In this document: positions 17,065 to 37,590 of the stretch, piece after piece
How the letters are laid out: every line of letters starts with the position of its first letter
Position numbering within the stretch: position 1 is the stretch's first letter
Source: Rhodobiaceae bacterium
GTDB taxonomy: Bacteria; Pseudomonadota; Alphaproteobacteria; Rhizobiales; Tepidamorphaceae
Length of the DNA: 37,826 bases
NCBI GenBank assembly: GCA_020441995.1
Contig: JAGRLC010000073.1
Coordinates: forward strand, 7,777-45,602
Direction of reading: 5' to 3'
Notes under the pieces: model-generated
The model's input: only the letters and a program-made list of their open reading frames with translations
The model's database searches: none
Told to the model about the DNA's origin: nothing
Program-made: the position numbers and the translations under genes

Positions 17065-17088
17065 GTTTCACGGACACGGACAAGTGGA

Positions 17089-17113: not shown

Positions 17114-17152
17114 ACCACCCGGCTGGCAGGCCGTTCCGATTGGGGGAACCGG

Positions 17153-17713
17153 TCAGGCCCGCTTGTTGCCCGTGACCATCGCGCGTACGAGGTTTTCCCC
17201 GTGCTCGATGCTGGCAAACACGACACCGCCGATATGCAGGGCGATAAGAACAAGTGTCGCGTTGGCCGCGAATTCGTGAACTTCCTCGACCCAGTCGACG
17301 CCCCAGAACGTGTCCGTCTCCATCATGTATCCGGTCGCGCAGATCGCCGAGATGGCAAGGAGCAGGGCAATCACCATCACAGCCCCGGCGGGGTTGTGCC
17401 CGAGATGGCGCTTGGCGCGGAATGAAACCGCATCCTTCACATAGCCGATTGCCGTGCCGGGTCCGGTGACGAAATTGGTGAAGCGGGCATGCTTCGTGCC
17501 GATGAAGCCCCACACCACGCGCAGCGCAATCAGCCCCGCGATCGTGTAACCGGCGATCTCATGCGGCTTGTCCCATTCATCGCCGGTCAGAAAGGCGAAG
17601 GCGAACAGCGCCACCAGCGACCAGTGAAAAATGCGCACGAACGGGTCCCAGACCCGGACGGTCGCCGGCAGTGTCGCACCGCCGGCTTCCGCCGTGCTGC
17701 CTCTTGCGTCCAT
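17153..17713 (-). CDS. Cytochrome b561-type membrane protein
   Basis: A 186-residue integral membrane cytochrome of the Ni/Fe-hydrogenase b-type/b561 group. Four hydrophobic helices are visible, with candidate haem-ligand histidines in FHWSLV (near 31), KPHEIAG (near 53), VHEFA and ALHIGG (near 145-160). It probably moves electrons between the quinone pool and a periplasmic partner. Its ATG overlaps the stop of the upstream PepSY gene by one base, so the two are cotranscribed. That pairing suggests a small periplasmic haem or redox module controlled by the divergent two-component genes. Confidence 0.87.
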   Translation of the reverse strand: MDARGSTAEAGGATLPATVRVWDPFVRIFHWSLVALFAFAFLTGDEWDKPHEIAGYTIAGLIALRVVWGFIGTKHARFTNFVTGPGTAIGYVKDAVSFRAKRHLGHNPAGAVMVIALLLAISAICATGYMMETDTFWGVDWVEEVHEFAANATLVLIALHIGGVVFASIEHGENLVRAMVTGNKRA

Positions 17714-21421: not shown

Positions 21422-21489
21422 TATTGCCGCCCGAGGCCAAACCGATTTCTCAACCCGTAGTCACGGGCACAAATGTCCGGGAGGATTGT

Positions 21490-22632
21490 ATGAAGCGTTT
21501 CACAACCAAATTTGCTGCCGCAGCGCTTGCGCTGACGCTGGCCGTACCGGCTCTCGCCGAGCCGGTCAAGGTCGGCATGATTACCACGCTGACCGGCGGC
21601 GGTGCGAGCCTCGGCATCGACGTGCGCGACGGCTTCATGCTCGCCATCAAGCAGGCCGGCAACAAGGATATCGAGGTTATCGTCGAGGACGATCAGCGCA
21701 AGCCCGACGTTGCCGTGCAGCTTGCCGACAAGCTGATCCAGAACGACAAGGTTGATGTGCTGACCGGCATCATCTGGTCGAACCTTGCCATGGCGGTTGT
21801 TCCCGCCGCGGTGGGGCAGGGCAAGTTCTACCTTTCGCCGAATGCCGCGCCCTCCGCGCTCGCCGGCAAGGGCTGCAACCCGCATTACTTCGCCGTCTCC
21901 TACCAGAACGACAACCTACACGAAGCCTCCGGCGCTTATGCCAATGACGCCGGCTTCAAGAAGACCTTCATCCTGGCGCCGAACTATCCGGCGGGCCAGG
22001 ATTCGCTGACCGGCTTCAAGCGCTTCTACAAGGGCGAGCTGGCCGGCGAGGTCTACACCAAGCTCGGCCAGGACGACTACGCAGCCGAGATCGCTCAGAT
22101 CAAGGCATCCGGCGCCGACAGCGTGTTCTTCTTCCTGCCCGGCGGCATGGGCATCGCCTTCATGAAGCAGTATGCTCAGTCGGAAGTCGGCCTGCCGCTG
22201 ATCGGTCCGGCCTTCTCCTTCGACCAGAACATCCTGCAGGCGGTTGGCGACGCAGCGCTTGGCGTCAAGAACACCGCCAACTGGTCCAAGGACATCGACA
22301 ACGAAGCCAACAAGAAATTCGTTGAGGGCTATCAGGCCGAATACGGCCGCCTGCCGTCGATCTACGCCTCCTACGGTTACGACACGGCCAACCTGCTGAT
22401 GTCGGCGCTGGCCAAGGCGCCGGTCTCTGACATGGCCGGCTTCCAGGCGGCGCTTGAAGCGGCTGATTTCTCATCGGTGCGCGGCAAGTTCTCCTTCGCG
22501 TCGAACCACCATCCGATCCAGGACATCTACGTGCGCGAAGTGATCAAGGAAGGCGACATCCTGACCAACAAGATCGTCGCAACCGCGATGACCGACCGCG
22601 ACAATGCCTACGTCTCAGAGTGCAAGATGTAA
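21490..22632 (+). CDS. ABC transporter periplasmic substrate-binding protein (HAAT/LivJ type)
   Basis: A 380-residue type 1 periplasmic binding protein with a signal peptide (cut after ALA near residue 22) and the family start VKVGMITTLTGGGASLG. It delivers a small solute, in this family usually an amino acid, amide, urea or aromatic acid, to the LivH/LivM-type permeases encoded downstream. GGGAGGA lies just before ATG 21490; upstream in-frame starts (such as 21424) are rejected. A strong hairpin follows the stop, which would let this gene be expressed above the rest of the operon. The solute cannot be read from sequence. Confidence 0.92.
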   Translation: MKRFTTKFAAAALALTLAVPALAEPVKVGMITTLTGGGASLGIDVRDGFMLAIKQAGNKDIEVIVEDDQRKPDVAVQLADKLIQNDKVDVLTGIIWSNLAMAVVPAAVGQGKFYLSPNAAPSALAGKGCNPHYFAVSYQNDNLHEASGAYANDAGFKKTFILAPNYPAGQDSLTGFKRFYKGELAGEVYTKLGQDDYAAEIAQIKASGADSVFFFLPGGMGIAFMKQYAQSEVGLPLIGPAFSFDQNILQAVGDAALGVKNTANWSKDIDNEANKKFVEGYQAEYGRLPSIYASYGYDTANLLMSALAKAPVSDMAGFQAALEAADFSSVRGKFSFASNHHPIQDIYVREVIKEGDILTNKIVATAMTDRDNAYVSECKM

Positions 22633-22651
22633 GCTGCGGAAACGCGAATGC

Positions 22652-22681
22652 CGGTGGCGCGGATCCTGTTCCGCGCCACCG
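22652..22681 (+). terminator. Strong intercistronic hairpin after the binding-protein gene
   Basis: A perfect 12-base stem (CGGTGGCGCGGA with TCCGCGCCACCG, loop TCCTGT) lies 20 bases after the stop and ends 13 bases before the LysE-family gene. No T-run follows. It is best read as a partial terminator or 3'-end stabiliser that raises binding-protein mRNA over permease mRNA, as in other ABC operons. Confidence 0.7.
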
Positions 22682-22694
22682 TTAAGGACCGACC

Positions 22695-23309
22695 ATGGAT
22701 ATCCTGATCAGCTTGCCGGTGATCCTGCTCGCCGCGCTCATCGCCCAGGCCTCGCCGGGGCCGGCCACGCTGGCCATTGCCTCCACCTCCATGACCCGGG
22801 GACTGGGGGCGGGCATGCGCATGGCCGCCGGTGTCCTGAGCGGATCGCTTGTCTGGTCGATCCTGACGGCGGCGGGCCTTGCGACCCTTGCCATGCGGCA
22901 TGTCTGGGCGCTCGAAGCGGTCCGCTATGTCGGTTCTGCCTATCTTTTCTGGCTGGCCTATAAATCGGCCCGCGCCGCCTTGAAGGGCGGCATGAGCGAG
23001 GGGCAGGTGTCCCGGTCCAGGCCCTATCTGCGCGGCCTCTTCATTCACCTGACCAATCCCAAGGCGATCCTCTTCTTCGCCGCGCTCTATTCCGTCATCC
23101 TCAAGCCGGGGCAGCCGGTGGCGAGCTTAGCCATCGTCGTGGCTGCGGTCGGCATCCAGAGCGCTCTCATCAATTTCGGCTATGCGTTCCTGTTTTCGCG
23201 CCAGGGACCGATGGCCGTCTATCGTCGCATGGCGCGCTGGATCAACGGCGTGTCTGCGATGCTGTTTGCCGGTTTCGCAACCAAACTGCTCACCGCCCGG
23301 CTGACATGA
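22695..23309 (+). CDS. LysE/RhtB-family transporter (amino acid exporter)
   Basis: A 204-residue membrane protein with about six hydrophobic segments and the family motif ASPGPATL near residue 26. LysE/RhtB proteins export amino acids or their derivatives. It lies inside the ABC import operon: AAGGA precedes ATG 22695, and its stop overlaps the LivH-type permease start by four bases (23306-23309), so it is translated with the importer. An exporter fused in this way to an importer operon suggests overflow control of the same or a related solute. Confidence 0.88.
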   Translation: MDILISLPVILLAALIAQASPGPATLAIASTSMTRGLGAGMRMAAGVLSGSLVWSILTAAGLATLAMRHVWALEAVRYVGSAYLFWLAYKSARAALKGGMSEGQVSRSRPYLRGLFIHLTNPKAILFFAALYSVILKPGQPVASLAIVVAAVGIQSALINFGYAFLFSRQGPMAVYRRMARWINGVSAMLFAGFATKLLTARLT

Positions 23310-24226
23310 GCGCAGCGCTCGTCTTCGAACAGCTCCTCAACGGATTGCAGTTCGGCGTCATGCTGTTCGTCATGGCGGCGGGGCTGACGCTGGTCTTCGG
23401 CGTCATGGGCCTGATCAATCTCGCCCACGGTTCGCTCTACATGCTCGGCGCCTTCGCCTGCGCCGCCGTTGCCGCAGCGACCGGATCGTTCATGCTCGGC
23501 CTTGCAGCGAGCCTCGCGGCGGCTGCCATCGCAGGCGTGCTGGTCGAGGTGCTGATCATCCGCCACCTCTATGCCCGCGACCATCTAGATCAGGTCATCG
23601 CAACCTTCGCGCTGATCCTCGTTTTCACCGAGGGCACGCGCTGGGCCTTCGGCTCCTTCCCGCTTTACCTCACTTTGCCGGACGCGCTGTCGGGATCCGT
23701 CGCGCTGCCCGGCGGCATCACCTATCCGCTGTTCCGTCTGCTGATCATCGGCGTCGGGCTGGGGATTGCCGGCGGGCTCTTTCTGCTGGTCAACAGGACG
23801 CGGCTCGGCATGCGCATCCGCGCCGGTGAATCCGACCGCGAGATGATCGCGGCGCTCGGCGTCGACATCGGCAAGCTCTACACAATCGTCTTCGCGCTCG
23901 GCGCGGCGCTGGCGGGGCTTGCAGGCGCGCTGGTCGGTTCGGTGCAGGCGGTGCAGATCGGCATGGGCGAGCCGGTGCTGATCCTCGCCTTCGTCGTTAT
24001 CGTCGTCGGCGGCATCGGCTCGATCACCGGCGCATTCATCGGCGCGGTCCTCGTCGGCCTCACCGACACGCTCGGACGCTTCCTGCTGCCGCAGGCCTTC
24101 GGGCTGATCATGGATGCATCCAGCGCCACGTCTGTCGGCTCCGCGCTCGCCTCCATGCTGATCTATGTGCTGATGGCGCTGGTGCTGGTGTTCAAGCCGA
24201 CCGGCCTGTTCGGAAAGCCCGCGTAG
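23306..24226 (+). CDS. Branched-chain amino acid-type ABC transporter permease, LivH family
   Basis: A 306-residue inner-membrane permease of the LivH type, with the family signature VFGVMGLINLAHGSLYMLGA near residues 30-50 and several membrane helices, ending in the usual FKPTGLFG. It forms the transport channel with the LivM-type permease encoded next. The start overlaps the LysE-family stop, and the stop directly abuts the LivM ATG. Confidence 0.93.
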   Translation: MSAALVFEQLLNGLQFGVMLFVMAAGLTLVFGVMGLINLAHGSLYMLGAFACAAVAAATGSFMLGLAASLAAAAIAGVLVEVLIIRHLYARDHLDQVIATFALILVFTEGTRWAFGSFPLYLTLPDALSGSVALPGGITYPLFRLLIIGVGLGIAGGLFLLVNRTRLGMRIRAGESDREMIAALGVDIGKLYTIVFALGAALAGLAGALVGSVQAVQIGMGEPVLILAFVVIVVGGIGSITGAFIGAVLVGLTDTLGRFLLPQAFGLIMDASSATSVGSALASMLIYVLMALVLVFKPTGLFGKPA

Positions 24227-25210
24227 ATGAAGCGGGAAACCTTCATAACGCTGCTGCTGATGGCGCTGCTTTTCGGCGCGGCCTTCCATGGCAAAACGGG
24301 TGATGAGCCATTCATCATCACGCTGGCGACAAAGGCGGCGATCTTCGCCATAGCAGGCGTCGGCCTCAACCTGGCGCTCGGCTATGGCGGGTTGGTTTCC
24401 TTCGGGCATGCGGCCTTCTTCGGCATCGGCGGCTATGCGGCGGGCATCATCGCGTCGGCTGCCCGCAACTACGCGCCGGTCATGACCTGGCCCATGGAGA
24501 TCGCGGGCAGCACAAGCATGCCGGTGATCTGGCTTGCTGCCATTGTCGCGGCGATGATCACCGCCATCCCCATCGGCATCTTCAGCCTGCGCACCGGCGG
24601 CGTCTACTTCATCATGATCACGCTCGCCTTCGCCCAGATGCTCTACTACTTCGCCGTCTCGTGGCCCGCCTATGGCGGCGAGGACGGGCTGTCGTTCTAC
24701 GTGCGCAATGAGGCTCTCGGGCTGAACATGATGGACCCGTGGACGTATTTCGCCGTCTGCTTCGGCGTGCTCGCCGTGGTGCTGGCGCTGATGGCGGTGC
24801 TGGTGCGATCGCGCTTCGGGCTGGCGCTGGAGATGGCGCGGCAGAACCCGCAGCGGCTGACCGCAAGCGGCATCCGCCCGTTCAACGTGCGCCTGACCGC
24901 CTTCGTCATCTCCGCCATGATCACCGGTCTTGCCGGCGCGCTCTATGCCGATCTCAACCGCTTCGTGTCGCCGTCGATGCTGTCGTGGCACACGTCGGGC
25001 GAGATCATGGTGTTCGTCATTCTCGGCGGCGTCGCGCGGCTCGGCGGACCCGTCGCCGGCGCCTGCCTTTACCTGCTGCTGGAAGAGGTGCTCGGCGACG
25101 TCACCGACTACTGGCAGGTGCTGCTCGGCATCGTGCTGCTTCTGGTGGTGCTGTTCGCGCGCGGCGGGCTGGTCGGCCTGCTGGCAGGCAGGAGGGCGGC
25201 GCATGACTGA
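24227..25210 (+). CDS. Branched-chain amino acid-type ABC transporter permease, LivM family
   Basis: A 327-residue permease with the LivM signature LNLALGYGGLVSFGHAAFFG (about 45-65) and a late conserved FVILGGVARLGGPVAGA segment. It pairs with the LivH-type permease. The ATG follows the LivH stop without a gap, and the 3' end overlaps the ATPase gene by eight bases, so the whole operon is tightly coupled. Confidence 0.93.
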   Translation: MKRETFITLLLMALLFGAAFHGKTGDEPFIITLATKAAIFAIAGVGLNLALGYGGLVSFGHAAFFGIGGYAAGIIASAARNYAPVMTWPMEIAGSTSMPVIWLAAIVAAMITAIPIGIFSLRTGGVYFIMITLAFAQMLYYFAVSWPAYGGEDGLSFYVRNEALGLNMMDPWTYFAVCFGVLAVVLALMAVLVRSRFGLALEMARQNPQRLTASGIRPFNVRLTAFVISAMITGLAGALYADLNRFVSPSMLSWHTSGEIMVFVILGGVARLGGPVAGACLYLLLEEVLGDVTDYWQVLLGIVLLLVVLFARGGLVGLLAGRRAAHD

Positions 25211-25952
25211 TCCCGTCCTCGAAGTCACCAACCTCTCGAAATCCTTCGGCGCGCTCGCCGCCTGCAAGAACGTGTCGCTCGACCTGATGCCCGGCGAAAT
25301 CCATGCGCTGATCGGCCCGAACGGCGCGGGCAAGACGACGCTGGTCAAGACCATTGCCGGCGAGATCGCGCATGATGCGGGCCACATCCGCTTCGATGGC
25401 GAACTGATAAGCCATCTCGATGCGGCGGGGCGTGCGCGGCTCGGCCTGGCGCGCACCTTCCAGATCTCCAGCCTCGCCATGGAAATGTCGGCGCTGAAGA
25501 ACGTCATGCTGGCGGTGATGGCGGTGTCGGGCGAAGTCTTCCGCTTCTTCAGGCACGCCGGCAGCGACGATGCGTTGCTTGGCCCCGCGCGCGCGTGTCT
25601 TGAGGAAGTCGGCTTGCAGAACCGCGCGCACACCCGCGTCGCCGAACTCTCCCACGGCGAACGCCGCCAGCTCGAAATCGCCATTGCGCTGGCGATGAAG
25701 CCGAAAGCCTTCCTGATGGACGAGCCGATGGCCGGCATGGGGCCGGAAGGCCTTGCGCGGCTGTCGGGCCTGCTTCGCGACCTGAAAGAGACCGCGCCCG
25801 TGCTGCTGATCGAACACGACATGGACGTGGTGTTCTCGCTGGCGGACCGCATCTCGGTGCTGGTCTATGGCGAGGTCATCGCCACCGGCACGGTCGAGGA
25901 AATCCGCGCAAATCCGGACGTGCAGGGCGCCTATCTGGGGGACGCGGCATGA
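25203..25952 (+). CDS. ABC transporter ATP-binding protein, LivG family
   Basis: A 249-residue ATPase with Walker A GPNGAGKT (38-45), a LivG-type signature LSHGERRQ (149-156) and Walker B ending in Asp173-Glu174 (FLMDEP). It couples ATP hydrolysis to import through the LivH/LivM permeases. The start is ATG 25203, where the family N-terminus (LEVTNLSKSFG) begins; it overlaps the LivM stop. The stop overlaps the LivF start by four bases. Confidence 0.94.
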   Translation: MTDPVLEVTNLSKSFGALAACKNVSLDLMPGEIHALIGPNGAGKTTLVKTIAGEIAHDAGHIRFDGELISHLDAAGRARLGLARTFQISSLAMEMSALKNVMLAVMAVSGEVFRFFRHAGSDDALLGPARACLEEVGLQNRAHTRVAELSHGERRQLEIAIALAMKPKAFLMDEPMAGMGPEGLARLSGLLRDLKETAPVLLIEHDMDVVFSLADRISVLVYGEVIATGTVEEIRANPDVQGAYLGDAA

Positions 25953-26641
25953 GCGCGCCCTTCCTCAAGGTCGCAGGTCTGACTGCCGGCTACGGCGCGT
26001 CGCAGGCGCTGTTCGGCGTCGATCTTGACGTGGGCACGGGCGAGGTCGTCGCCCTGATGGGCCGCAACGGCATGGGCAAGACGACGACGATCAAGACCGT
26101 GTGCAAGCTGCTTCCCATCACTGGCGGCAGCATCATGATCGATGGCCGCGACACGAAGCGGATACCGGTTCACAAGGCGGCCCGCCTCGGCATTGGCCTG
26201 GTGCCGGAGGGCAGGCGCTGCTTCCCCAACCTGAGCGTTGAGGAAAACCTCGTTGCCGCCGCGCGGTCAGGCGAATGGACTTTCGACGAGGTGGCGAAGC
26301 TTTTCCCGCGCCTCGCCGAGCGGCGGACGCAATCGGCCAGCACGCTATCGGGCGGCGAACAGCAGATGCTGGCCATCGGCCGCGCGCTGATGACAAACCC
26401 GAAACTGCTGATCCTTGACGAGGCCACCGAAGGCCTCGCCCCCGTCGTGCGTCAGGAGATCTGGGCGGCGATCTATGCCCTGAAGGACAGCGGCCTGTCG
26501 ATCCTCGTCGTCGACAAGACCATACGCGAACTGAAAGCCGTCGCCGACCGCTGCGTCATCCTCGAACGGGGGCAGAGCGTGTGGACGGATAAGCCGGAGA
26601 ACTTAAGCGATGAGGTGTGTGCGCGGTATCTGGGGGTTTGA
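25949..26641 (+). CDS. ABC transporter ATP-binding protein, LivF family
   Basis: A 230-residue ATPase with Walker A GRNGMGKT (38-45), signature LSGGEQQ (133-139), Walker B with Asp157-Glu158 (LILDEAT) and the LivF-typical LVPEGRRCFPNLSVEENL region near 84-101. It forms the ATPase pair with the LivG-type protein. It is the last gene of the transporter operon; its stop is 24 bases from the stop of the convergent DddL-like gene, with no obvious terminator between. Confidence 0.94.
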   Translation: MSAPFLKVAGLTAGYGASQALFGVDLDVGTGEVVALMGRNGMGKTTTIKTVCKLLPITGGSIMIDGRDTKRIPVHKAARLGIGLVPEGRRCFPNLSVEENLVAAARSGEWTFDEVAKLFPRLAERRTQSASTLSGGEQQMLAIGRALMTNPKLLILDEATEGLAPVVRQEIWAAIYALKDSGLSILVVDKTIRELKAVADRCVILERGQSVWTDKPENLSDEVCARYLGV

Positions 26642-26665: not shown

Positions 26666-27352
26666 TTATCCCACCTTCTTCGAGAAATTCATGCCCGGCT
26701 TGGCGAGCTTCTCCGGCGGGCCGACCCAGGCATAGGCGAGGAGGCAGGGGTCGCGTTCGCCCGTCGTGATGCGGTGGTTGTGATCGGAGCGGTTGAGGAT
26801 CAGCGAGCCCGGCGAGTAGACCGCTTGGTCGTTCTCCGACCAGTTGCCCGAGATCGAGATATAGCTCTCCTCGATCTCCTTGTGGTGATGCTGCGGGTAG
26901 GTCGTCTCGGGCGCAAACAGCACGAAGCCGAGGATCAGCTTATTCGTCACCACCGGTCCCTGCGGGCCGAGCACCTCGCAATAGGCGTATTTCCGCATCA
27001 GCGCCTTGGGCACTTTCTCGTAGCCGTATTCCCACGTCAGCAGATGGGCGACGCGTTCCAGCGCCTTCGCCAGGCCGAACATCGCGTAGCGCGAGCCGAC
27101 ATCGAAGGCGCGGTTCAAATGCGCGGTGACCGGCTTCGATGCCGGCGGGCGCGGATTGATCGGCGGATTGGAGTCGATGATCGCGGCAAGTGAATCGCGG
27201 ACCCGCTTGCGATGGCCGCGGATGATCTTGCTGCCGCCCGCGAAGCCTGGCCGGTACAAAAGCTCGAACTCGCGCAGCAGGTAGTCCCAGTCGGGCACGT
27301 CCTGCAGGCGGGTTCGGGTTTCTTCAACCGGCTCGGTTTGCGCGTCGCTCAT
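26666..27352 (-). CDS. dddL: DddL-like cupin, probable dimethylsulfoniopropionate (DMSP) lyase
   Basis: A 228-residue protein with a helical N-terminal half and a C-terminal cupin. The candidate metal site is His155-x-His157-x3-Glu161 plus His193, the same HxH-x3-E...H pattern known for cupin DMSP lyases such as DddW. Tyr164 follows in EESY. The N-terminal segment DVPDWDYLLREFELLYR and the following AGGS and GHRKRVRD blocks agree with what I recall of DddL. DddL cleaves DMSP to dimethyl sulfide and acrylate. The gene starts 26 bases after the stop of an upstream reductase gene, so the two form an operon, echoing acuI-dddL in Rhodobacter. A related cupin with another substrate remains possible. 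Confidence 0.72.
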   Translation of the reverse strand: MSDAQTEPVEETRTRLQDVPDWDYLLREFELLYRPGFAGGSKIIRGHRKRVRDSLAAIIDSNPPINPRPPASKPVTAHLNRAFDVGSRYAMFGLAKALERVAHLLTWEYGYEKVPKALMRKYAYCEVLGPQGPVVTNKLILGFVLFAPETTYPQHHHKEIEESYISISGNWSENDQAVYSPGSLILNRSDHNHRITTGERDPCLLAYAWVGPPEKLAKPGMNFSKKVG

Positions 27353-27378: not shown

Positions 27379-28359
27379 TCAGGGCTTCAGCAAAATCTTG
27401 CCGCGGTGCTGGGCCGCTTCCATCATCGCGTGCGCTTCCGCGGCCTGCGACATCGGCAGCACGGAGTGGGTCACGGTGACAAGCTTCTTCGGAAACAGCG
27501 GCCAGACCTTTGCCTGGAGTTCCGAGGCGATCGCGGTCTTGAAGCTGTCTGGGCGCGAGCGCAGCGTGGAGCCCGTGTAGGTGAGGCGCTTCAGCATCAC
27601 CGGCATCAGGTTGATCTCCATCTTCGAGCCCTTGTTGAACGCGATCTGGACGATGCGCGCATCGTGCCGCGCGGCCTTGAAATTACGCTCCACATAGTCG
27701 CCGGCGATGATGTCGAGGATGATGTCGGCGCCGCCTGCCTCGCGCACGGTCTCGACGAAATCCTCGTCGTGGAAATTGATCGCGCGGGCCGCGCCAAGGC
27801 GCTCGCAGTAATGACAGTCTTCCGCCGAACCGGCGGTGGTGAACACCTTCAGCCCCATCGCCGCGCCAAGCTGGATCGCGGTGGAGCCGATGCCGCCCGC
27901 GCCGCCATGGACGAGGAAATTCATGCCTTCCTTGACGTCGTGGCCGTGGAAGATGTTGCTCCACACCGTGAAGAAGGTTTCGCACAGGCCGGCGGCGTCG
28001 GTGAGGGAGACACCTTCGGGAATGGTCAGGCAGTGGCTTGCGTCGATGGCGACATATTCCGCGTAGCCGCCGCCGTTGGTCAGCGCGCAGATCCTGTTAC
28101 CGGCTTTCCACTTGGTGACGTCGCCGCCGACCGCGACCACCTCGCCGGAAACTTCCAGACCGAGCAGGTCGGACGCGCCCTTGGGCGGGGGGTAGTGACC
28201 GCGCCGCTGGATGATATCCGGCCCGTTGACGCCGCAGGCATCCACCTTGACCAGAACTTCATGGGCCGCGGGCGAGGGCACCGACCGCTTGCCGAGCTCG
28301 AGCACTTCCGGCCCGCCGGGTTCTGTCGCTACGACGACGTCCATTTCAGTCGGGATCAT
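27379..28359 (-). CDS. PIG3-type medium-chain NAD(P)H-dependent oxidoreductase
   Basis: A 326-residue zinc-independent medium-chain dehydrogenase/reductase. It has the N-terminal GroES-like fold with the QRRGHYPPP segment of the PIG3 quinone-oxidoreductase group, and the nucleotide-binding motif HGGAGGIGSTA at 151-161. Automated naming would be NAD(P)H-quinone oxidoreductase. The position directly upstream of the DddL-like gene makes an acryloyl-CoA or other enoyl reductase role attractive, although the known AcuI enzymes are of the YhdH branch, which this does not resemble. The ATG at 28359 follows AAGAGA. A 281-base structured gap separates it from the upstream ligase genes. Confidence 0.85.
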   Translation of the reverse strand: MIPTEMDVVVATEPGGPEVLELGKRSVPSPAAHEVLVKVDACGVNGPDIIQRRGHYPPPKGASDLLGLEVSGEVVAVGGDVTKWKAGNRICALTNGGGYAEYVAIDASHCLTIPEGVSLTDAAGLCETFFTVWSNIFHGHDVKEGMNFLVHGGAGGIGSTAIQLGAAMGLKVFTTAGSAEDCHYCERLGAARAINFHDEDFVETVREAGGADIILDIIAGDYVERNFKAARHDARIVQIAFNKGSKMEINLMPVMLKRLTYTGSTLRSRPDSFKTAIASELQAKVWPLFPKKLVTVTHSVLPMSQAAEAHAMMEAAQHRGKILLKP

Positions 28360-28640: not shown

Positions 28641-29519
28641 TCAACTCTCAAGCGCCGCTCGCATCTCGGCGGCAACATCATCGGCGGTATCGGCGATGAC
28701 GACACCGGCGGAGGCGAGACGGTCGATCTTCTCTTCCGCGCTTTGCAGCCCGAACAGCGACAGCGTGCCGGCATGGCCCATGCGCCGTTCCTTCGGCGCG
28801 TGCCGCCCGACGATCAGCGCCACGACCGGCTTGCCGTAGTCGACGGAGTTCAGGTAGTCGGCCGCGTCCTCTTCCTCGGTGCCGCCGACTTCGCCGATCA
28901 GGATGACGCCCTGCGTGTCCGGATCGTCCTTGAACAGCTCAAGACAGCGTCTGAAGCCGATACCGTGGACAGGATCGCCGCCGACGCCGACGGTGGTTGA
29001 CTGGCCAAGACCCACAGCGGATGTCTGCGCCAGGATTTCGCTGGTCAGCGAGGCCGAGCGCGATGCGATGCCGATAACGCCGGGGCTTGCATCCGTGGTC
29101 GCCATCACACCGATCTTGCAGGCGCCGGGCGTCAGCACGCCCTGCGAGTTCGGCCCGACGAGCGTGGTCCTGGAGCCTTTGAGCGCCGCCTTGACCTTCG
29201 AGATGTCATGCACGGGCACGCGCTCGGTGACGCAGACCACGAGCGGAATTTCAGCCTCGATCGCCTCGATCAGCGCCGCGCCGGCCTTGGGCGCGGGCAC
29301 CATCACCATGCTGGCGTTCGCCTGGGTTTCCTCGACCGCGTCCTTCACCGTGTTGAAGATCGGCAGCCCCATGTGCTGTGTGCCTCCCTTGCCGGGGCGC
29401 ACGCCGCCGACATAGGTCGAGCCGTAGCGGATCGCGAGGTCGGTATAGAAGGTGCCGGAGCGGCCTGTCATGCCCTGCACGATGACGCGGGTATCGGGTC
29501 CAACGAGAATGGCCATCAT
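28641..29519 (-). CDS. Succinyl-CoA synthetase alpha (SucD)-like acyl-CoA ligase subunit
   Basis: A 292-residue subunit of an ADP-forming acid-CoA ligase with CoA-binding fold, phospho-histidine His249 in RMGHAG and Glu210 in IGEVGG, so the phosphotransfer core is intact. Normally invariant SucD stretches differ: GPNCPG reads GPNSQG (123-128) and SRSGTLTYE reads SRSASLTSE (153-161). This points to a changed acid substrate rather than succinate. The ATG at 29519 overlaps the beta-subunit stop by four bases, with GGGAGG upstream; a second ATG follows directly. It is probably a paralogue of the housekeeping sucD, which usually lies with mdh and sucAB. Malate-CoA ligase (MtkB) is a related alternative. 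Confidence 0.85.
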   Translation of the reverse strand: MMAILVGPDTRVIVQGMTGRSGTFYTDLAIRYGSTYVGGVRPGKGGTQHMGLPIFNTVKDAVEETQANASMVMVPAPKAGAALIEAIEAEIPLVVCVTERVPVHDISKVKAALKGSRTTLVGPNSQGVLTPGACKIGVMATTDASPGVIGIASRSASLTSEILAQTSAVGLGQSTTVGVGGDPVHGIGFRRCLELFKDDPDTQGVILIGEVGGTEEEDAADYLNSVDYGKPVVALIVGRHAPKERRMGHAGTLSLFGLQSAEEKIDRLASAGVVIADTADDVAAEMRAALES

Positions 29520-30691
29520 GCCCTCCCTGTACGTGCGATCTCGACCGCGCGTTCGACGGCTTCGCCCATGGTGTCGAAACTGTCGAACTCAAGCCGCCGG
29601 TTTCTCAGCACGCTGACAGCCCATTCCGCGTTCGTGCCGGCCAGCCGCACGACAACGGGCGGCTTGCGGCTGGAGCGCGAATAGGCGATCGCGAAGCCTT
29701 CCGCCACCGTGTCGCAGGCGGTCATGCCGCCGCCATGCACGTTGATGAGCATGACCGTTACGCTTGTATCCTGCAGCAGCATGGCGATGCCGCGTGCGAT
29801 TTGAAGGCTCGTGGTCGTCGTGCGGATGTCCATGAAGTTCGCCGGCCTGCCGCCTGCGTCGACGATCATGTCGTTGGTCGCAAGGCCGAGGCCCGCGCCA
29901 TTGACGACGACGCCGATATTGCCGCCCAGCTTGACGAAGTTGATGTCGTTTTCACTGGCGATGCGTTCCTGCTCCTCGCGCTGCGCCTCGCTGTTCGCAT
30001 CGTCGAACTCGGGGTGGCGGAACAGGGCGTTGCCGTCGAGGCTGATCTTGGCGTCGACCGCAACCGCGCTGCCGTCCTTGCGCACGGCCAGCGGGTTGAT
30101 CTCGACCAGCGTCGCGTCGTTGTCGAAGAAGGCTTTCGCGGCACCCTTCGCGATTTTCAGAACGCCGTCGCGGGCCTTGTCCGGGATGCCGGCCTTTTCA
30201 AGGAACGCGCCGATAGCCGCTTCGTCGAACTCGCCATCCGACGGCAGCGTCAGATGGCTGACGATGTCAGGGTCCATGCGGGCCGCCTGCTCGAACTCCA
30301 CACCGCCCTTGGCCGAGCACAGCAGGACCGGCTGCCCGTCATGCTGGTCGAAGGCCAGCGACAGGTAATAGCTGTGGACGATGTCGATGGCTTCCTCGAC
30401 ATATACGGAGTTGACCATCTCGCCGGCTTCCCCGGTCTGGTCGGTGACGAGGCGCTTGCCGATCAGCTTGCCCGCTTCGGCGCGCACCGCCGACGGGGTG
30501 GCGGCGAACTTGATGCCGCCGACGAGCCCGCGTCCGCCGGCGCCGATCTGCGCCTTCACAACATATTTCGCAGAATCGATTTCCTTGCAGCTCGCCTCGG
30601 CCTCTTGCGGGCTTGTCGCCAGCCGTCCGGTCGGAATCGCAACGCCGTACTGCGCCAGGATTTCCTTGGAAAGGTGCTCCGAAAGGTTCAT
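29516..30691 (-). CDS. Succinyl-CoA synthetase beta (SucC)-like acyl-CoA ligase subunit
   Basis: A 391-residue ATP-grasp subunit that pairs with the SucD-like protein. It keeps VKAQIGAGGRG (about 45-55), LVEINPL (195-201) and NGAGLGLAT (264-272). The loops near the substrate site differ: the usual DVGGGATKE reads DIRTTTTSL (288-296), and NIFGGIVRCD becomes NVHGGGMTACD (317-327), losing the arginine and gaining one residue. It is therefore also diverged from MtkA as I recall it. The acid may be oxalate, acrylate or another small acid. I chose the ATG at 30691, which has AAGGGGGA about 6 bases upstream; an ATG at 30739 would add 16 residues. Confidence 0.86.
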   Translation of the reverse strand: MNLSEHLSKEILAQYGVAIPTGRLATSPQEAEASCKEIDSAKYVVKAQIGAGGRGLVGGIKFAATPSAVRAEAGKLIGKRLVTDQTGEAGEMVNSVYVEEAIDIVHSYYLSLAFDQHDGQPVLLCSAKGGVEFEQAARMDPDIVSHLTLPSDGEFDEAAIGAFLEKAGIPDKARDGVLKIAKGAAKAFFDNDATLVEINPLAVRKDGSAVAVDAKISLDGNALFRHPEFDDANSEAQREEQERIASENDINFVKLGGNIGVVVNGAGLGLATNDMIVDAGGRPANFMDIRTTTTSLQIARGIAMLLQDTSVTVMLINVHGGGMTACDTVAEGFAIAYSRSSRKPPVVVRLAGTNAEWAVSVLRNRRLEFDSFDTMGEAVERAVEIARTGRA

Positions 30692-30980: not shown

Positions 30981-31520
30981 TTACTTCACCAGCGGCAGGA
31001 TGCGCTTGAACTGTTCGGACCCGGCACGGCCGAGCCACTCGAAAACCACCATCTCGGTCGTCACGATGCCGGCCCCGATGGCGCTGAGCCGCTGGATGCA
31101 GGCGTGTTCGCTCTCCAGCGTGCGCGAGGCGGTGGCGTCGGATACGACGAAAACCTCGTAATCTTCCTCGATCAGGCTGGCGGCGGTCTGGACGACGCAG
31201 ATATGCGCCTCCATGCCGGAAATGACAGCCTGCTTGCGGCCAAGGGCGCGGAACGCCTCGCCAAAGGCCTGATCTTCCATGCAGGAGAAATGCATCTTGG
31301 AAAATACCGGCGCTTTCGTCGCGGATGCGATCTCGGGTACGGTATGTCCAAGTCCCTTGGGATACTGCTCTGTAAGCAGAACCGGGACGTCCATTTCCGT
31401 CGCCGCCGCAATCAGCGTTTTCGTGTTGCGGATCGTGCGCGCCGGAGCCTGCATGGCAGGGACCAGGCGTTCCTGCATGTCGATAACGACAAGAACGGAG
31501 TCGGACGCACGTATCAGCAT
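30981..31520 (-). CDS. Isochorismatase-family cysteine hydrolase
   Basis: A 179-residue cysteine hydrolase with the complete triad Asp14 (VVIDMQ), Lys75 (FSKMHF) and Cys108 (GMEAHICV), and the cis-peptide VxGMEAHIC loop. The family includes nicotinamidase, carbamoylases and many amide hydrolases of unknown substrate. The start at 31520 is the only in-frame ATG near the family N-terminus; AAGGAGG lies unusually far upstream (about 17 bases), so translation may be weak or the leader folded. It is divergent from the hydroxyacid dehydrogenase and shares its putative GntR operator, so it may work in the same pathway. Confidence 0.88.
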   Translation of the reverse strand: MLIRASDSVLVVIDMQERLVPAMQAPARTIRNTKTLIAAATEMDVPVLLTEQYPKGLGHTVPEIASATKAPVFSKMHFSCMEDQAFGEAFRALGRKQAVISGMEAHICVVQTAASLIEEDYEVFVVSDATASRTLESEHACIQRLSAIGAGIVTTEMVVFEWLGRAGSEQFKRILPLVK

Positions 31521-31665: not shown

Positions 31666-32619
31666 ATGAAAATCGTCTGCCTGGACAAGGATACCTACGC
31701 GTCGGATCTCGATCTGCACCGTCCCTCGTTCGACCATGACTGGGTCGAATACGCACAGACGTCTCCCGACCAGATTCTGGAACGCCTCGCGGGTGCGCAG
31801 GTCTGCATTACCAACAAGGTGCCAATGCGCGCCGAGACATTGGCGAAGCTTCCGGACCTGAAGATGATCTCGGTTTCGGCCACCGGCTATGACGTGATCG
31901 ATGTGCCGGCCTGCCGCGAGCATGGCGTTGTCGTTTCCAATGTGCGCGGCTATGCCGAGAACACGGTGCCGGAGCACACATTCGCGCTGATCCTTGCCTT
32001 GCGCCGCGGCATTGTCGGCTACCGCGAGGACGTCATCAACGGCGAGTGGCAGAAGTCCGGACAGTTCTGTTTCCACACCCACATGATTCGCGATCTGGCC
32101 AACTCGACGCTTGGCATTATTGGCGAGGGCGTGATCGGGCAGGGTGTTGCGCGCATCGCACGCGGCTTCGGCATGAAGATCCACTTTGCCGCCCACAAGG
32201 GCGTTGAAGGCCTCGGCCCCCTCTACACCCCCTTCGAGCAGGTGCTGGAGGAGAGCGACATCATCACGATGCATTGCCCCCTCAACGCCCACACTAAGGA
32301 TACGCTGGGCGCGGCGGAGTTCGCGAAGATGAAGCGCAAGCCGCTGATCATCAACACGTCGCGCGGCGGATTGGTCAATGAAGCGGCCCTCGTCGATGCG
32401 CTCGAATCCGGCCAGATCGCGGGCGCCGGTTTCGACGTGCTGACCAAGGAGCCGCCGGCGGCCGACAACCCGCTGCTGCGCCTCCTGGGTCGGCCCAACT
32501 TCATCCTGACGCCGCATGTGGCGTGGGCAAGCCGCGAGGCGCAGACGGAGTGCTGGCGCCAGACCATCGCAAACATTGAGAATTTCGTTTCCGGAGACCC
32601 GTCCAACACCGTGACCTGA
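31666..32619 (+). CDS. D-2-hydroxyacid dehydrogenase, glycerate/hydroxypyruvate reductase-like
   Basis: A 317-residue NAD(P)-dependent dehydrogenase with nucleotide-binding motif GEGVIGQG (153-160) and catalytic Arg233 (NTSRGG), Glu262 (KEPP) and His284 (TPHVAW). The AGAGFDVLTKEPP and LTPHVAWASREA blocks are typical of the HprA-type glycerate dehydrogenase branch, which reduces hydroxypyruvate or glyoxylate. Next to oxalate genes this fits glyoxylate/glycerate handling. Its ATG at 31666 has only a modest upstream GGGGAAG. It shares an operator region with the divergent hydrolase and lies upstream of the GntR gene. Confidence 0.87.
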   Translation: MKIVCLDKDTYASDLDLHRPSFDHDWVEYAQTSPDQILERLAGAQVCITNKVPMRAETLAKLPDLKMISVSATGYDVIDVPACREHGVVVSNVRGYAENTVPEHTFALILALRRGIVGYREDVINGEWQKSGQFCFHTHMIRDLANSTLGIIGEGVIGQGVARIARGFGMKIHFAAHKGVEGLGPLYTPFEQVLEESDIITMHCPLNAHTKDTLGAAEFAKMKRKPLIINTSRGGLVNEAALVDALESGQIAGAGFDVLTKEPPAADNPLLRLLGRPNFILTPHVAWASREAQTECWRQTIANIENFVSGDPSNTVT

Positions 32620-32651: not shown

Positions 32652-32686
32652 TTGTAAGGCATTGGACTTTTGTCTATGGTATACCA
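32652..32686 (+). promoter_or_regulatory. Promoter and overlapping GntR operator of the regulator gene
   Basis: TTGTAA at 32652-32657 and TATGGT at 32675-32680 have a 17-base spacing and could be the -35 and -10 boxes. The perfect palindrome TGGTATACCA (32677-32686) overlaps the -10, as expected for repression by a GntR protein that controls its own gene. The match to the site at 31579 is exact. Confidence 0.55.
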
Positions 32687-32740
32687 CACAACAAATGCCA
32701 GTGAGCTGACTCTGATACAGGGCGGCAAGGCAATAAAAAG

Positions 32741-32776
32741 CCCCGCAAACAAACGCGGGGAAGGGAAACGCGGGGA
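32741..32776 (+). promoter_or_regulatory. Leader with two alternative pairing partners near the GntR start codon
   Basis: CCCCGC at 32741-32746 can pair with GCGGGG at 32755-32760 or with an identical GCGGGG at 32770-32775. The two lie in an exact 11-base direct repeat (AAACGCGGGGA at 32751 and 32766). The second copy forms part of the Shine-Dalgarno region just before ATG 32781, so one fold would hide the ribosome site and the other would free it. It could also be a simple promoter-proximal hairpin. Confidence 0.45.
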
Positions 32777-32780
32777 GAGC

Positions 32781-33494
32781 ATGGCGGGCGTAACGCTCAA
32801 GCCAATTGGCACCAGCTTTATGCTGAAGGACCACATTTACGAGGTCCTTCTGGAAGCGATTCTTGCCTCGAATATCTACGATGAAGATGCCAACCTGCGC
32901 CTTGACGAGCGCACGATGGCCGAGCAGCTCGGCATCTCGCGCACGCCGGTGCGTGAGGCGCTTGCCCGGCTTGAGCGCGATGGTTTCGTCGATATCCAGC
33001 CGCGCAAGGGCGTTTTCATCCGCCGCAAGTCTCTCGAAGACGTTCAGGAGATGGTGATCGCCTGGGCCGCGCTTGAATCCATGGCCGCGCGTCTCGCCAC
33101 GCAGTACGCCACGGAAGAAGAGCTGCAAAATCTGCGCTCGATGGCGGTGCGCGACAGCAAGAATGCATCGCACGCCAACATCGAGGAATACTCGGAAGCG
33201 AACATAAAGTTTCATCAGGCCATCCTCGAGATGTCCCATTGTTCGCTTCTCAAGGATATGGCGGATGGCCTGTTCATGCACATGCATGCCATTCGCCGCC
33301 GTGCGATGGGCGAGGGTGATCGCGTCGATCGTTCGGTTATCGACCATATGGAAATCATCGAGGCTCTGGAAAGCCGTGACGCGGACCTCGCCGAGCGGCT
33401 TGTGCGCGAGCACACCATGAAGCTTCACGACCACATCAGACGAACCTGGAGAAAGATCGCGGTGATGTCGCGCACGCGGCGGGCGGCTGAATAG
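32781..33494 (+). CDS. GntR-family transcriptional regulator (FadR/FCD subfamily)
   Basis: A 237-residue regulator with an N-terminal winged helix-turn-helix (about 15-80; GISRTPVREALARLERDGFV is the classic GntR recognition segment) and a C-terminal all-helical FCD ligand domain with spaced acidic and histidine residues that usually bind a metal and a small carboxylate. The ligand could be oxalate, glyoxylate or glycolate; this is inference from neighbours. I chose ATG 32781, with GGGGAGAG upstream; a TTG at 32670 would place the start within the operator. It is followed 53 bases later by oxc and probably controls it together with the TGGTATACCA promoters. Confidence 0.92.
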   Translation: MAGVTLKPIGTSFMLKDHIYEVLLEAILASNIYDEDANLRLDERTMAEQLGISRTPVREALARLERDGFVDIQPRKGVFIRRKSLEDVQEMVIAWAALESMAARLATQYATEEELQNLRSMAVRDSKNASHANIEEYSEANIKFHQAILEMSHCSLLKDMADGLFMHMHAIRRRAMGEGDRVDRSVIDHMEIIEALESRDADLAERLVREHTMKLHDHIRRTWRKIAVMSRTRRAAE

Positions 33495-33547: not shown

Positions 33548-35308
33548 ATGTCTGCAGCAGTGCCCAGCACGGAACCCACTCAGTCGGTGGACAATCTCAC
33601 CGACGGTTTCCATCTGCTCATCGACGCGCTGAAGATCAACGGCGTTAAGACGATCTACAACGTTCCCGGTATTCCGATCACGGATCTGGGCCGCTATGCG
33701 CAGGCGCAGGGCTTGCGCGTTCTGTCGTTCCGTCACGAGCAGCACGCCGGCTATGCCGCCGCCGCCGCGGGCTTCCTCACCAAGAAGCCGGGCATCTGCA
33801 TGACGGTTTCGGCGCCGGGCTTCCTCAACGGCCTGACCGCGCTGGCCCATGCCACCACCAACTGCTGGCCGATGATCCTGATCTCCGGCTCTTCCGAGCG
33901 TGAGATCGTCGATCTGCAGCGCGGTGACTACGAGGAGATGGATCAGTTGGCCATCGCCCGTCCGCATTGCAAGGCGGCCTACCGTATCCTGCACGCCGAG
34001 GACATCGGTCTGGGTGTTGCCCGCGCCATCCGCGCCGCGCTGACCGGGCGTCCGGGCGGTGTCTACCTCGACATTCCCGGCCAGCTTCTCGGCCAGGTGA
34101 TGGACGCGGTCGAGGGCCAGAAGTCACTCATCGAGGTTGTCGATCCCAATCCGGCGAGCGTTCCGTCTCCCGAAGCCATCTCGCGCGCCGTGGACGTTCT
34201 GAAGTCAGCCAAGAAGCCGCTCATCATTCTCGGCAAGGGCGCCGCCTACGCGCAGGCTGACGACAAGGTCCGTGAGTTGGTCGAGACCCTCGGCTTCCCG
34301 TACCTGCCGATGTCGATGGCCAAGGGCCTTCTGCCGGATACCCATCCGCAGTGCGCTTCCGCCGCCCGTTCGCTGGTGCTGAAGGAAAGCGATTGCGTCT
34401 TCCTGATCGGCGCCCGCCTCAACTGGCTCCTGCAGCACGGCCAGGGCAAGTCCTGGGGTGAGAAGGGATCCAAGAAGTTCGTCCAGATCGACATCGAGCC
34501 GACCGAGATGGACTCCAACCAGAAGATTTCCGCGCCGCTGATCGGCGATATCGAATCCTGCGCCACGGCGCTGCTCGACGCGATCGGTTCCAACTGGCAG
34601 AAACCGCCGGAGGAGTGGACCGGCGCGGTTAGCTCCAAGGTCAAGGCGAACGTCGAGAAAATGGCGCCGCGCCTGCGCAACAACAATTCGCCCATGGACT
34701 ACCAGGGTTCGCTCGGCGTGATGAAGGAACTCATCGCCCAGAACCCCGATGTCGTGCTGGTCAACGAAGGCGCCAACGCGCTCGACCAGGCTCGCTCGAT
34801 CATCGACATCCACAAGCCCCGCAAGCGTCTCGACGTCGGCACCTGGGGCATCATGGGCATCGGCATGGGCTCCGCTGTCGCGGCCGCGGTCGAAACCGGC
34901 AACCAGGTTCTGGCCATCGAGGGCGACAGCGCCTTCGGCTTCTGCGGCATGGAGGTCGAGACGATCTGCCGCTACAACCTGCCGGTCTGCATCGTGATCA
35001 TGAACAACAACGGCATCTACCGCGGCGACGGCACCAACTGGTCCGGCGGCGAGGACCCCTCGACCACCGTTTTCGTCAAGGGCGCGCGTTACGACCTGAT
35101 GATGCAGGCCTTCGGTGGTGAAGGCGTGACCGTCAACAACCCCGATGAGCTGCGTCAGGCAATCCAGGCTGCTTTCGACAGCCGCAAGCCCACGCTGATC
35201 AATGCCGTTATCGCCGAAGACGCCGGCAAGGAAAGCGGCAACATCGGCAATCTCAACCCCTCTTCGGTGGTGGCGCAGGCGCGCTATCCGCAAGCGAAGA
35301 AAATCTAA
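33548..35308 (+). CDS. oxc: Oxalyl-CoA decarboxylase
   Basis: A 586-residue thiamine-diphosphate enzyme that converts oxalyl-CoA to formyl-CoA and CO2. It matches the Oxalobacter enzyme closely throughout: the ThDP-activating Glu64 lies in FRHEQHAGYAA, SAPGFLNG and GSSEREIVDLQ follow, and the ThDP/Mg motif begins GDSAFGF and ends in MNNNGIYRG. GGAGG lies 11 bases before ATG 33548. It lies between the GntR gene and frc, 21 bases from the latter, and is surely cotranscribed with it. 2-hydroxyacyl-CoA lyases are the nearest alternative family, but the residue pattern favours true Oxc. Confidence 0.95.
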   Translation: MSAAVPSTEPTQSVDNLTDGFHLLIDALKINGVKTIYNVPGIPITDLGRYAQAQGLRVLSFRHEQHAGYAAAAAGFLTKKPGICMTVSAPGFLNGLTALAHATTNCWPMILISGSSEREIVDLQRGDYEEMDQLAIARPHCKAAYRILHAEDIGLGVARAIRAALTGRPGGVYLDIPGQLLGQVMDAVEGQKSLIEVVDPNPASVPSPEAISRAVDVLKSAKKPLIILGKGAAYAQADDKVRELVETLGFPYLPMSMAKGLLPDTHPQCASAARSLVLKESDCVFLIGARLNWLLQHGQGKSWGEKGSKKFVQIDIEPTEMDSNQKISAPLIGDIESCATALLDAIGSNWQKPPEEWTGAVSSKVKANVEKMAPRLRNNNSPMDYQGSLGVMKELIAQNPDVVLVNEGANALDQARSIIDIHKPRKRLDVGTWGIMGIGMGSAVAAAVETGNQVLAIEGDSAFGFCGMEVETICRYNLPVCIVIMNNNGIYRGDGTNWSGGEDPSTTVFVKGARYDLMMQAFGGEGVTVNNPDELRQAIQAAFDSRKPTLINAVIAEDAGKESGNIGNLNPSSVVAQARYPQAKKI

Positions 35309-35329: not shown

Positions 35330-36604
35330 ATGAAAGCTCTTGAAGGCGTGAAGGTTCTCGACTTCACACACGTTCAGTCAGGACCGACCTGCACCCAGCT
35401 TCTGGCCTGGTTCGGCGCCGACGTTATCAAGGTCGAGCGTCCCGGCGTTGGCGATGCGACGCGCAAGCAGCTCGTCGACGTGCCCGGTGCGGACAGCCTG
35501 TATTTCACCATGCTGAACCACAACAAGCGCTCCATCGAGATCAACTCGAAGGACCCCGCCGGCAAGGAAGTGCTGACCAAGCTGATCGAAACCTGCGACG
35601 TCATGGTGGAGAACTTCGCTCCCGGCGCGCTCGATCGCATGGGCTTCTCCTGGGAGAACATCCAGAAGATCAACCCGCGCATCATCCTGGCTTCGGTGAA
35701 GGGTTTCGGCCCCGGCAAGTACGAGGACTGCAAGGTCTACGAGAACGTCGCGCAGTGCGCCGGCGGCTCGGCTTCGACCACCGGCTTCCTCGACGGCCCG
35801 CCGCTCGTGACCGGCGCCCAGATCGGCGATTCCGGCACCGGCCTCCACCTCTGCCTTGGTATCGTTACCGCGCTTTACCAGCGTGAGAAGTCCGGCCGTG
35901 GCCAGAAGGTGCTCGCACCGATGCAGGATGGCGTTCTCAACCTGTGCCGCGTCAAGCTGCGCGACCAGCAGCGCCTCGCGGCCGGTCCGCTGACCGAGTA
36001 CTCGCAGTTCGGCGAAGGTATCCCCTTCGGTGAGGCGACCCCGCGCGCGGGCAACGACTCCGGTGGCGGTCAGCCCGGCCGCATCCTGAAGTGCAAGGGC
36101 TGGGAAACCGATCCCAACGCCTACACCTACTTCATCACCCAGGCGGCGGTCTGGGAGAAGGTCTGCGACGTCATCGGCGAGCCGGACTGGAAGACCGACC
36201 CCGAGTACGCGACGCCGAAGGCGCGCCTGCCGAAGCTCAACGCGATCTTCGCGCGCATCGAAGAGTGGACGATGACCAAGACCAAGTTCGAGGTCATGGA
36301 CATCTGCAACCCGCTCGATATTCCGGTGGGCCCGATCCTCTCCATGAAGGAAATCATGGAAGACGAGGGCCTGCAGAAGACCGGAACGATCGTCAAGGTC
36401 GATCACCCCGAGCGCGGCGCCTATTACTCCGTCGGCTGCCCGATCAAGCTGTCCGACAGCCCGGTTGATGTGAAGCGTTCGCCGTTGCTTGGCGAGCACA
36501 CCGAGGAAATCCTCAGCAGCGTTCTTGGCTACCAGGGCGACGATCTGCAGCGGCTGACCGAGTCCGGCGCGTTCGGCGACCTGCGTAAGGAAGCGGCTGA
36601 GTAA
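35330..36604 (+). CDS. frc: Formyl-CoA:oxalate CoA-transferase
   Basis: A 424-residue class III CoA transferase that moves CoA from formyl-CoA to oxalate, giving formate and oxalyl-CoA for Oxc. Catalytic Asp167 lies in IGDSGTG, matching Asp169 of the Oxalobacter enzyme, and the flexible glycine loop reads SGGGQPG near residue 245. Family blocks [29 protein letters not shown] and LKCKGWETD are present. Oxc and Frc together form the complete oxalate cycle. GGAGG precedes ATG 35330. A hairpin after the stop separates it from the formyltransferase gene. Confidence 0.95.
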
Positions 36605-36672: not shown

Positions 36673-37590
36673 ATGCGTTTGATTGTTATGGGGCAGCAGG
36701 CCTTCGGTAAGGACGTGCTTGCAAAACTTCTGGACACCGGCACCGATGAGGTTGTCGCGGTCTATTGCGAGCCGGACAAGGAAGGCAAACCTATTGACCC
36801 GATCAAGGAATTCGCGCTTGAGAAGGGGCTGCCCGTAGAGCAGCCGGCGAATTTCGATGCTGAGGAAACGCTGGAGACGCTGAAAGGCTACAACGCCGAC
36901 CTGATGGTCATGGCCTTCGTCAATGTCTTCGTTCCCGAGGCCGCGCGCGATACGCCGACCCACGGTTCAATCTGCTTCCATCCTTCGCTGCTGCCGCTGC
37001 ACCGCGGACCTTCCGCGGTCAACTGGCCGATCATCATGGGCTCCAAGAAGTCCGGCTTTTCATGGTTCTACCCCTCCGACGGTCTCGACGAGGGCGACAG
37101 CCTGATGCAGTGGGAATGCGAGATCGGCCCCGACGACACGGTCATCGATCTCTACTTCAAGAAGATCTACCCCGTTGCCGTCGACAGCGTGCTTGAGGTT
37201 GTCGACCTCTACCGCAAGGGTAATCCGCCACGCATCGTCGCCAACGAGGACGAAGCGACCTACGAGCGCCGTTGCACGACCAAGCATTCACGCATCGACT
37301 GGAACAAGCCGGTGCAGCAGGTTTACGACCTGATCCGCGGCACAAACCCCTCTCCAGGCGCATGGACGACGTTCAATGGCGAGACCATTGGTGTCTTCGA
37401 CTGTGCGCTTGTGCCCGGTGACGGTATCTCCAGCCGCGTCCGCGAAATCACCGACGAAGGCTTCGCCGTGCAGTGCATCGGCGGCCGCGTCCTGGTGAAG
37501 CGCGTGCGTCCCAAGGATGGCGGCAAGGTTGGAGCCGCCGAATGGGCCGCCAGCGTCGGCCTGAAAGCCGGCGACGAGTTCGGCGTCTGA
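36673..37590 (+). CDS. Formyltransferase family protein like the hydrolase domain of 10-formyl-THF dehydrogenase
   Basis: A 305-residue protein with a formyl_trans_N domain (1-200) and a formyl_trans_C domain (205-305). It resembles the N-terminal hydrolase domain of vertebrate ALDH1L1 more than Fmt: [15 protein letters not shown] with His103 and DGLDEGD with Asp139 match the catalytic His106 and Asp142. The position held by Asn in Fmt and Ile in ALDH1L1 is Cys101 here. No aldehyde dehydrogenase domain follows. Known relatives split 10-formyl-THF to formate and THF, which would oppose the adjacent formate-THF ligase. Formyl transfer involving formyl-CoA is a possible alternative. GGGGAGAG precedes ATG 36673. 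Confidence 0.85.

Follow-up and report, generated by a model that had tools for sequence, protein, structure and literature searches.

The window analyzed here, a stretch of 37,826 nucleotides from a Rhodobiaceae bacterium, carries two adjacent genes for a SucC-like β subunit and a SucD-like α subunit (Table 1). Their reading frames share 4 bp (ATGA), and the SucC-like gene starts with an ATG at position 30691 that is immediately preceded by a purine-rich stretch. Both proteins match the NCBIfam SucC/SucD models as well as succinyl-CoA synthetases (SCS) in the PDB, and the pair has the layout of the SCS-type (NDP-forming) superfamily, in which ATP-grasp_2, CoA-binding, and ligase domains are distributed over two neighboring subunits. 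The scores were below the cut-offs of TIGR01019 (330.5 vs 353.2) and TIGR01016 (362.2 vs 375.55) and above those of PRK05678 (338.3 vs 336) and PRK00696 (387.1 vs 370); the latter two NCBI naming models still give the name succinate-CoA ligase, which counts against the oxalate reading developed below. Single-chain AF2 models had pLDDT values of 80 (SucC-like) and 72 (SucD-like) with unreliable domain packing (TM about 0.54), and the best PDB fold match of the modeled SucC-like chain is SCS β. The host genome also encodes a canonical SucC on another contig, adjoining malate dehydrogenase (mdh), and thus the TCA-cycle role is already filled. Elsewhere in the window, positions 21424-26641 (+) hold a urea/branched-chain-type ABC transporter operon, in which an RhtB-like exporter gene lies between the genes for the binding protein and the first permease.

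Table 1. Genes and motifs around the SucC/SucD-like pair (positions in the window)
Feature	Position	Strand	Remarks
DddL-type DMSP lyase	26666..27352	-	directly after PIG3 gene; Pfam DMSP_lyase
PIG3-type NAD(P)H-quinone oxidoreductase	27379..28359	-	directly downstream of the pair
SucD-like α subunit	28641..29519	-	292 aa
RRMGHAG with phospho-acceptor His249 (SucD-like)	28767..28787	-	intact
SRSASLTSE, 153-161 (SucD-like)	29037..29063	-	canonical SRSGTLTYE; Ser155 retained, Ser160 in place of succinate-binding Tyr
GPNSQG, 122-127 (SucD-like)	29139..29156	-	canonical GPNCPG; Asn124 kept
SucC-like β subunit	29516..30691	-	391 aa, type A; ATP-grasp and ligase domain
Rebuilt acid loop H319-GGGMTACD-327	29711..29737	-	canonical FGGIVRCD; one extra Gly
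Rebuilt glycine loop D288-IRTTTTS-295	29807..29830	-	canonical DVGGGATK
Isochorismatase-like hydrolase	30981..31520	-	recurs in islands L008, L049, La 6 plasmid, L101
D-2-hydroxyacid dehydrogenase (glyoxylate/hydroxypyruvate reductase-like)	31666..32619	+	same place in closest relative L003 only
GntR regulator	32670..33494	+	first in divergent oxc-frc operon
Oxalyl-CoA decarboxylase Oxc	33548..35308	+	TIGR03254, 958.8 bits vs cut-off 739.4
Formyl-CoA transferase Frc	35330..36604	+	TIGR03253, 708.2 bits vs cut-off 504.2
Fmt-like formyltransferase	36673..37590	+	conserved in islands

Acid pocket and phylogeny of the pair

A sequence-only reading of this locus had claimed an intact catalytic core surrounded by altered substrate loops, and we examined this by residue-by-residue comparison with E. 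coli SucC and with pig and human SucD. The core was borne out: the phospho-His (H249) and its partner Glu (E210) of the SucD-like subunit are intact and invariant, and the ATP-grasp residues E197, N199, and D213 of the SucC-like subunit are intact. The claimed changes in the SucC loops DVGGGATKE and GGIVRCD are all real, the single inserted residue being a Gly in GGGM, and those in SucD (GPNCPG to GPNSQG and SRSGTLTYE to SRSASLTSE) are equally present in the alignment. The proximal acid-site residues Asn124 and Ser155 of the SucD-like subunit are kept at the same numbers, and the DIRTTTTS glycine loop introduces Arg290, an invariant residue, into the SucC-like subunit. In pig SCS with bound succinate (PDB 5CAE), the near end of the acid, the phosphate, and Mg are contacted by α Asn124, Ser155, and His249 together with a β glycine, while the far (C4) carboxylate is held by the hydroxyl group of α Tyr160 and the backbone of β GIV (PMC11489063; pocket positions are given there in HpfYZ numbering). 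Both distal-carboxylate contacts are replaced in the window pair, Tyr160 by Ser160 in α and GIV by GGM plus one inserted Gly in β. These loop changes fit an acid other than succinate, and taken alone they do not specify oxalate.

Retuning of SCS-type ligases has precedent in the 3-sulfopropionate-CoA ligase HpfYZ and the sulfoacetate-CoA ligase SqwKL (PMC11489063). HpfYZ is changed at the same two positions (α 160 and β GIV), but it has His160 and GIN where the window pair has Ser160 and GGM (GGMT) with an insertion, and oxalate genes instead of sulfonate genes lie near the latter. SucCD and SUCLG1-SUCLA2 share with the pair the fold, subunit make-up, ATP-grasp core, phospho-His, and proximal Asn and Ser at identities of about 34-41% (β) and about 50% (α), whereas the pair lacks the distal-carboxylate Tyr, GIV, and the canonical glycine loop, has one inserted residue, and falls in a separate clade. 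The malate-CoA ligase MtkAB is likewise an SCS-type paralogue with a shifted substrate, but it differs in its FAGINRCD loop, its clade, and a malyl-CoA-lyase-like neighbor gene.

Rhodobacterales, Tepidamorphaceae, and other alphaproteobacteria have orthologues whose SucC is 55-71% identical, and the loop changes proved to be a family signature of 13 type-A loci and a sister pair from Phyllobacterium. The DIRT..TS motif is kept in 13/13 type-A loci (with one DIRTSATS and one DLRTT), as is HGGGM, and type-A SucD has GPNSQG and SRSASLTSE wherever it is readable. The sister form, type P, occurs on two Phyllobacterium plasmids and carries the same motifs at 41% SucC identity, whereas the more remote sister type X (G184 and G079) has D-V/I-RP.ATRDQ and GGGILRCD in SucC with the SucD motifs of type A. 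Overall, DIRT/S..TS-type and HGGGM loops occur in 15/15 SucC of the clade (13 type A and 2 Phyllobacterium) and are absent from E. coli SucC and from all 36 other SucC that span the loops, that is, 27 sequences (L012-L038), the malate-type L060, six of type B (a canonical-loop SucCD), and two of type X. Because of this distribution (15/15 vs 0/36; the count test used 35 of the 36), the signature is not due to chance. Types A, P, and X share the SucD motifs GPNSQG and SRSASLTSE, which none of the canonical SucD compared has.

The sequence-only reading had named a phylogeny against SucCD and MtkAB as a check, and the pair was placed outside both clades. In the SucC tree, types A and P group with support of 100/99, and canonical SucC, malate-CoA ligase, and type B all fall outside this group; the grouping persists in the SucD tree, which is a quick tree, and in a SucC tree with the loops masked, where A, P, and X cluster together (SH-aLRT 99). 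Since the distal contacts are replaced, neither the SucC clade nor the malate-CoA-ligase clade includes the pair, and a canonical SucC adjoins mdh, the substrate is probably not succinate; on this point the earlier claim has good support from sequence and phylogeny. The pair is predicted to be a new ADP-forming acyl-CoA synthetase.

Gene company of types A, P, and X

The order PIG3 - SucD - SucC, divergent from GntR - Oxc - Frc - Fmt-like - (Fhs) - Usp - TctC-TctB-TctA - KPR1, recurs as an island. Oxc scored above its curated cut-off in 13/13 type-A genomes, and in 12 of these the ligase and Oxc lie in one cluster; in the remaining one (G454), the ligase is located at a contig end. Among 391 genomes sampled from the order of G782 (Roseovarius), 5 had type A and 12 had Oxc, with an overlap of 5 (Fisher 1e-8, an optimistic value given shared ancestry). 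Seven of the 12 Oxc genomes are without the type-A ligase, and oxalate use therefore does not require it, which leaves room for formate or another small acid as the substrate. One of the seven (G899) has a type B SucCD in the same slot and two have OxlT with a second Frc, while the others, including G957 despite its KPR1, show no visible ligase nearby.

The slot occupied in G899 bears on whether type A is simply a drifted succinyl-CoA synthetase that gives Frc succinyl-CoA as a CoA donor. Type B SucCD also directly follows oxc-frc in Azospirillum and Skermanella, as such a role would predict; nevertheless, we consider this quite unlikely for type A, which retains neither succinate contact, branches as a deep clade of its own, and is found alongside type B in L004, L008, P. 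alcaliphilus, and La 6. As a separate observation, oxc-frc of Azospirillum, Skermanella, Paracoccus, and Phyllobacterium has type B SucCD and an ACD-type acyl-CoA ligase as neighbors (L116:23477-25553, L117:34314-38001, L039:8377-10554 and 15136-17222, and L101), whose annotations are those of TCA or acetate enzymes. These ligases likely provide an accessory CoA supply, perhaps by feeding succinyl-CoA to Frc.

Other genes recur in these regions. The isochorismatase-like hydrolase is well conserved (73-85%), and in L008, L049, La 6, and L101 it adjoins SucCD, which may belong to either type. The Fmt-like formyltransferase regularly follows Frc (the window, L007, L008, L058, L118, and L119), often with formate-THF ligase behind it, and may act in the transfer of either formyl-THF or formyl-CoA. 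Plasmid CP031587.1 of La 6 (about 46000-90000; L040, L062) bears an apparently complete oxalate assimilation island with ligases, Oxc, Frc, Fhs, reductase, SHMT, aminotransferase, HprA, Ppc, PPDK, and formate dehydrogenases.

Type P and type X loci have related company. In the Phyllobacterium loci, OxlT, a divergent TPP enzyme, and Frc are followed directly by SucCD, with KPR2 nearby. We had considered type X a non-oxalate system because no Oxc scored above the cut-off, but this was overturned by Frc and an oxalate-type island with the divergent TPP enzyme: both type-X genomes have Frc above the cut-off, a Tct-GntR-TPP-Frc-Fmt-Fhs island, and KPR2, which in G079 is directly downstream of SucCD. 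As Frc occurs in 33/374 genomes of the class sample, its presence in two of two type-X genomes is unlikely to be chance, yet the figure is not overwhelming. The divergent TPP enzyme (L061:8799-10553, L041:6664-8418, L118:7882-9678, and L119:8556-10277), which has about 24% identity to Oxc and is under the Oxc cut-off, replaces Oxc before Frc and is possibly a second oxalyl-CoA decarboxylase lineage.

Two kinds of reductase accompany the ligases. In Cupriavidus, Caballeronia, and Nonomuraea, KPR2 homologues are encoded no more than a few kb from frc, and they fit the description of ApbA2 of C. necator, which was found near frc-oxc via PanE2 of Methylobacterium and whose deletion slows growth on oxalate (PMC7486775). 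KPR1, a ketopantoate-reductase-like protein, is present in 13/13 type-A genomes and near the island in 8; it matches Pfam ApbA only marginally and has about 21-24% identity to the ApbA2-like KPR2. From its location and family likeness, KPR1 is a plausible candidate for a second type of oxalyl-CoA reductase. Copies were seen at L062:12568-13617, G000:C171:31301-32344, and G000:C152:76497-77543.

The sequence-only reading had offered oxalate and acrylate as candidate substrates. The neighborhoods in 13 genomes favor the former. For the latter, the pair would be an acrylate-CoA ligase cooperating with DddL and the PIG3-type reductase, and the acrylate would stem from DMSP; in the window, the genes for DddL, PIG3, SucD, and SucC follow one another on the minus strand as a putative operon, and PIG3 has a superfamily-level likeness to acryloyl-CoA reductases. 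However, DddL adjoins the pair only here and is missing from all orthologous loci, which suggests a local gain, and PIG3 fits the quinone-oxidoreductase model (437 bits) far better than AcuI (46 bits). We therefore rejected the acrylate reading, to which we give almost no probability. The idea of PIG3 as an obligatory partner reductase was weakened as well: the gene follows SucCD in 9/12 readable loci but is missing in L049, L056, and L057, which keep SucCD and Oxc and so also count against acrylate, and PIG3-like genes also occur near oxalate islands without SucCD.

Predicted reaction and rival substrates

Taken together, the rebuilt acid pocket and the company of oxalate-breakdown genes suggest that the pair probably attaches oxalate to coenzyme A using ATP. 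Our favored reading, which we hold with modest confidence, is that of an ADP-forming oxalate-CoA ligase with two tasks, namely priming Frc/Oxc and providing oxalyl-CoA for assimilation. For the wider proposal of a new SCS-type subfamily of such ligases, in which the subclades A, Phyllobacterium, and X are linked with Frc and with oxalyl-CoA reductases of two kinds, we see the chances as evenly balanced. The overall reaction would be ATP + oxalate + CoA -> ADP + Pi + oxalyl-CoA, with substrate and direction as predicted here. By analogy with SCS and from the conserved residues, ATP would phosphorylate His249 of SucD, the phosphate would move from His249 to oxalate, and CoA would then displace it. 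The oxalyl-CoA formed could prime the cycle in which Frc moves CoA only from formyl-CoA to oxalate and Oxc converts oxalyl-CoA to formyl-CoA. Because Frc only swaps CoA, it can neither start itself nor make a net thioester. In addition, each reduction of oxalyl-CoA to glyoxylate by the island's ketopantoate-reductase-like enzyme, a putative reductase, would destroy one thioester, and the ligase, unlike Frc, could replace the thioesters lost to this route. An ATP-driven oxalate-CoA ligase would meet both needs, priming and thioester replacement.

The gene associations fit oxalate, formate, and other acids of the same pathway alike, and formate is the nearest rival substrate. A formate-CoA ligase (formyl-CoA synthetase) could run forward, so that formyl-CoA made from formate primes Frc, or in reverse, capturing ATP from surplus formyl-CoA when glyoxylate is oxidized via oxalyl-CoA. 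It would share the neighborhood of Oxc, Frc, Fmt-like, and Fhs genes, formate dehydrogenase adjoins the pair in L005 and La 6, and the lost distal-carboxylate contacts would suit an acid without a second carboxylate. We nevertheless regard it as unlikely, since a charged substrate explains the new invariant Arg290 more easily, formyl-CoA is already handled by Frc, and formate is consumed by Fhs. We assign the same low probability to a ligase for another small acid of this metabolism, such as malate (serine cycle), glyoxylate, malonate, or tartronate, although the La 6 island also has the serine-cycle genes ppc, glyA2, and hprA and an aminotransferase. Malate-CoA ligases form a separate clade with other loops (GGGAS and FAGINRCD), and the malate-CoA ligase model PRK14046 gave a score of 322.9, far under its cut-off of 604; clade and loops led us to reject malate-CoA ligase as the identity of the pair. 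Moreover, this genome (75% complete) showed no Ppc of the La 6 type, and in La 6 a canonical-loop SucCD adjoins ppc and could fill the malate role.

Returning to oxalate, other organisms meet the predicted task with different enzymes. The oxalyl-CoA synthetases AAE3 and FAT2 form AMP, not ADP. They yield the same predicted net product, oxalyl-CoA, from an unrelated enzyme family in plants and yeast, and ATP-driven oxalate activation to oxalyl-CoA is known in plants through AAE3 (PMC4763187, PMC12686821). E. coli primes the Frc/Oxc cycle by a separate acetyl-CoA:oxalate CoA-transferase, YfdE (PMC3720670); the job is the one predicted for the window pair, but YfdE is a CoA-transferase and the pair a predicted ATP-driven ligase. 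A literature search, with most subscription papers outside its reach, found no ADP-forming oxalyl-CoA synthetase, and as far as the searched literature shows, bacterial oxalate activation is not yet assigned to the SCS family.

If the oxalate reading is true, alphaproteobacteria would have a direct ATP-driven route to oxalyl-CoA. Few answers are known to the priming of Frc/Oxc and to the thioester cost of diverting oxalyl-CoA to glyoxylate, namely YfdE in E. coli and, in plants and yeast, a synthetase that forms AMP. A ligase that acts directly and forms ADP would close this gap and provide one more example of the SCS scaffold changing its substrate. It would also draw attention to a class of genes whose current annotation is the TCA-cycle succinate-CoA ligase, and it could serve oxalate-degrading strains and the design of C1/C2 pathways.
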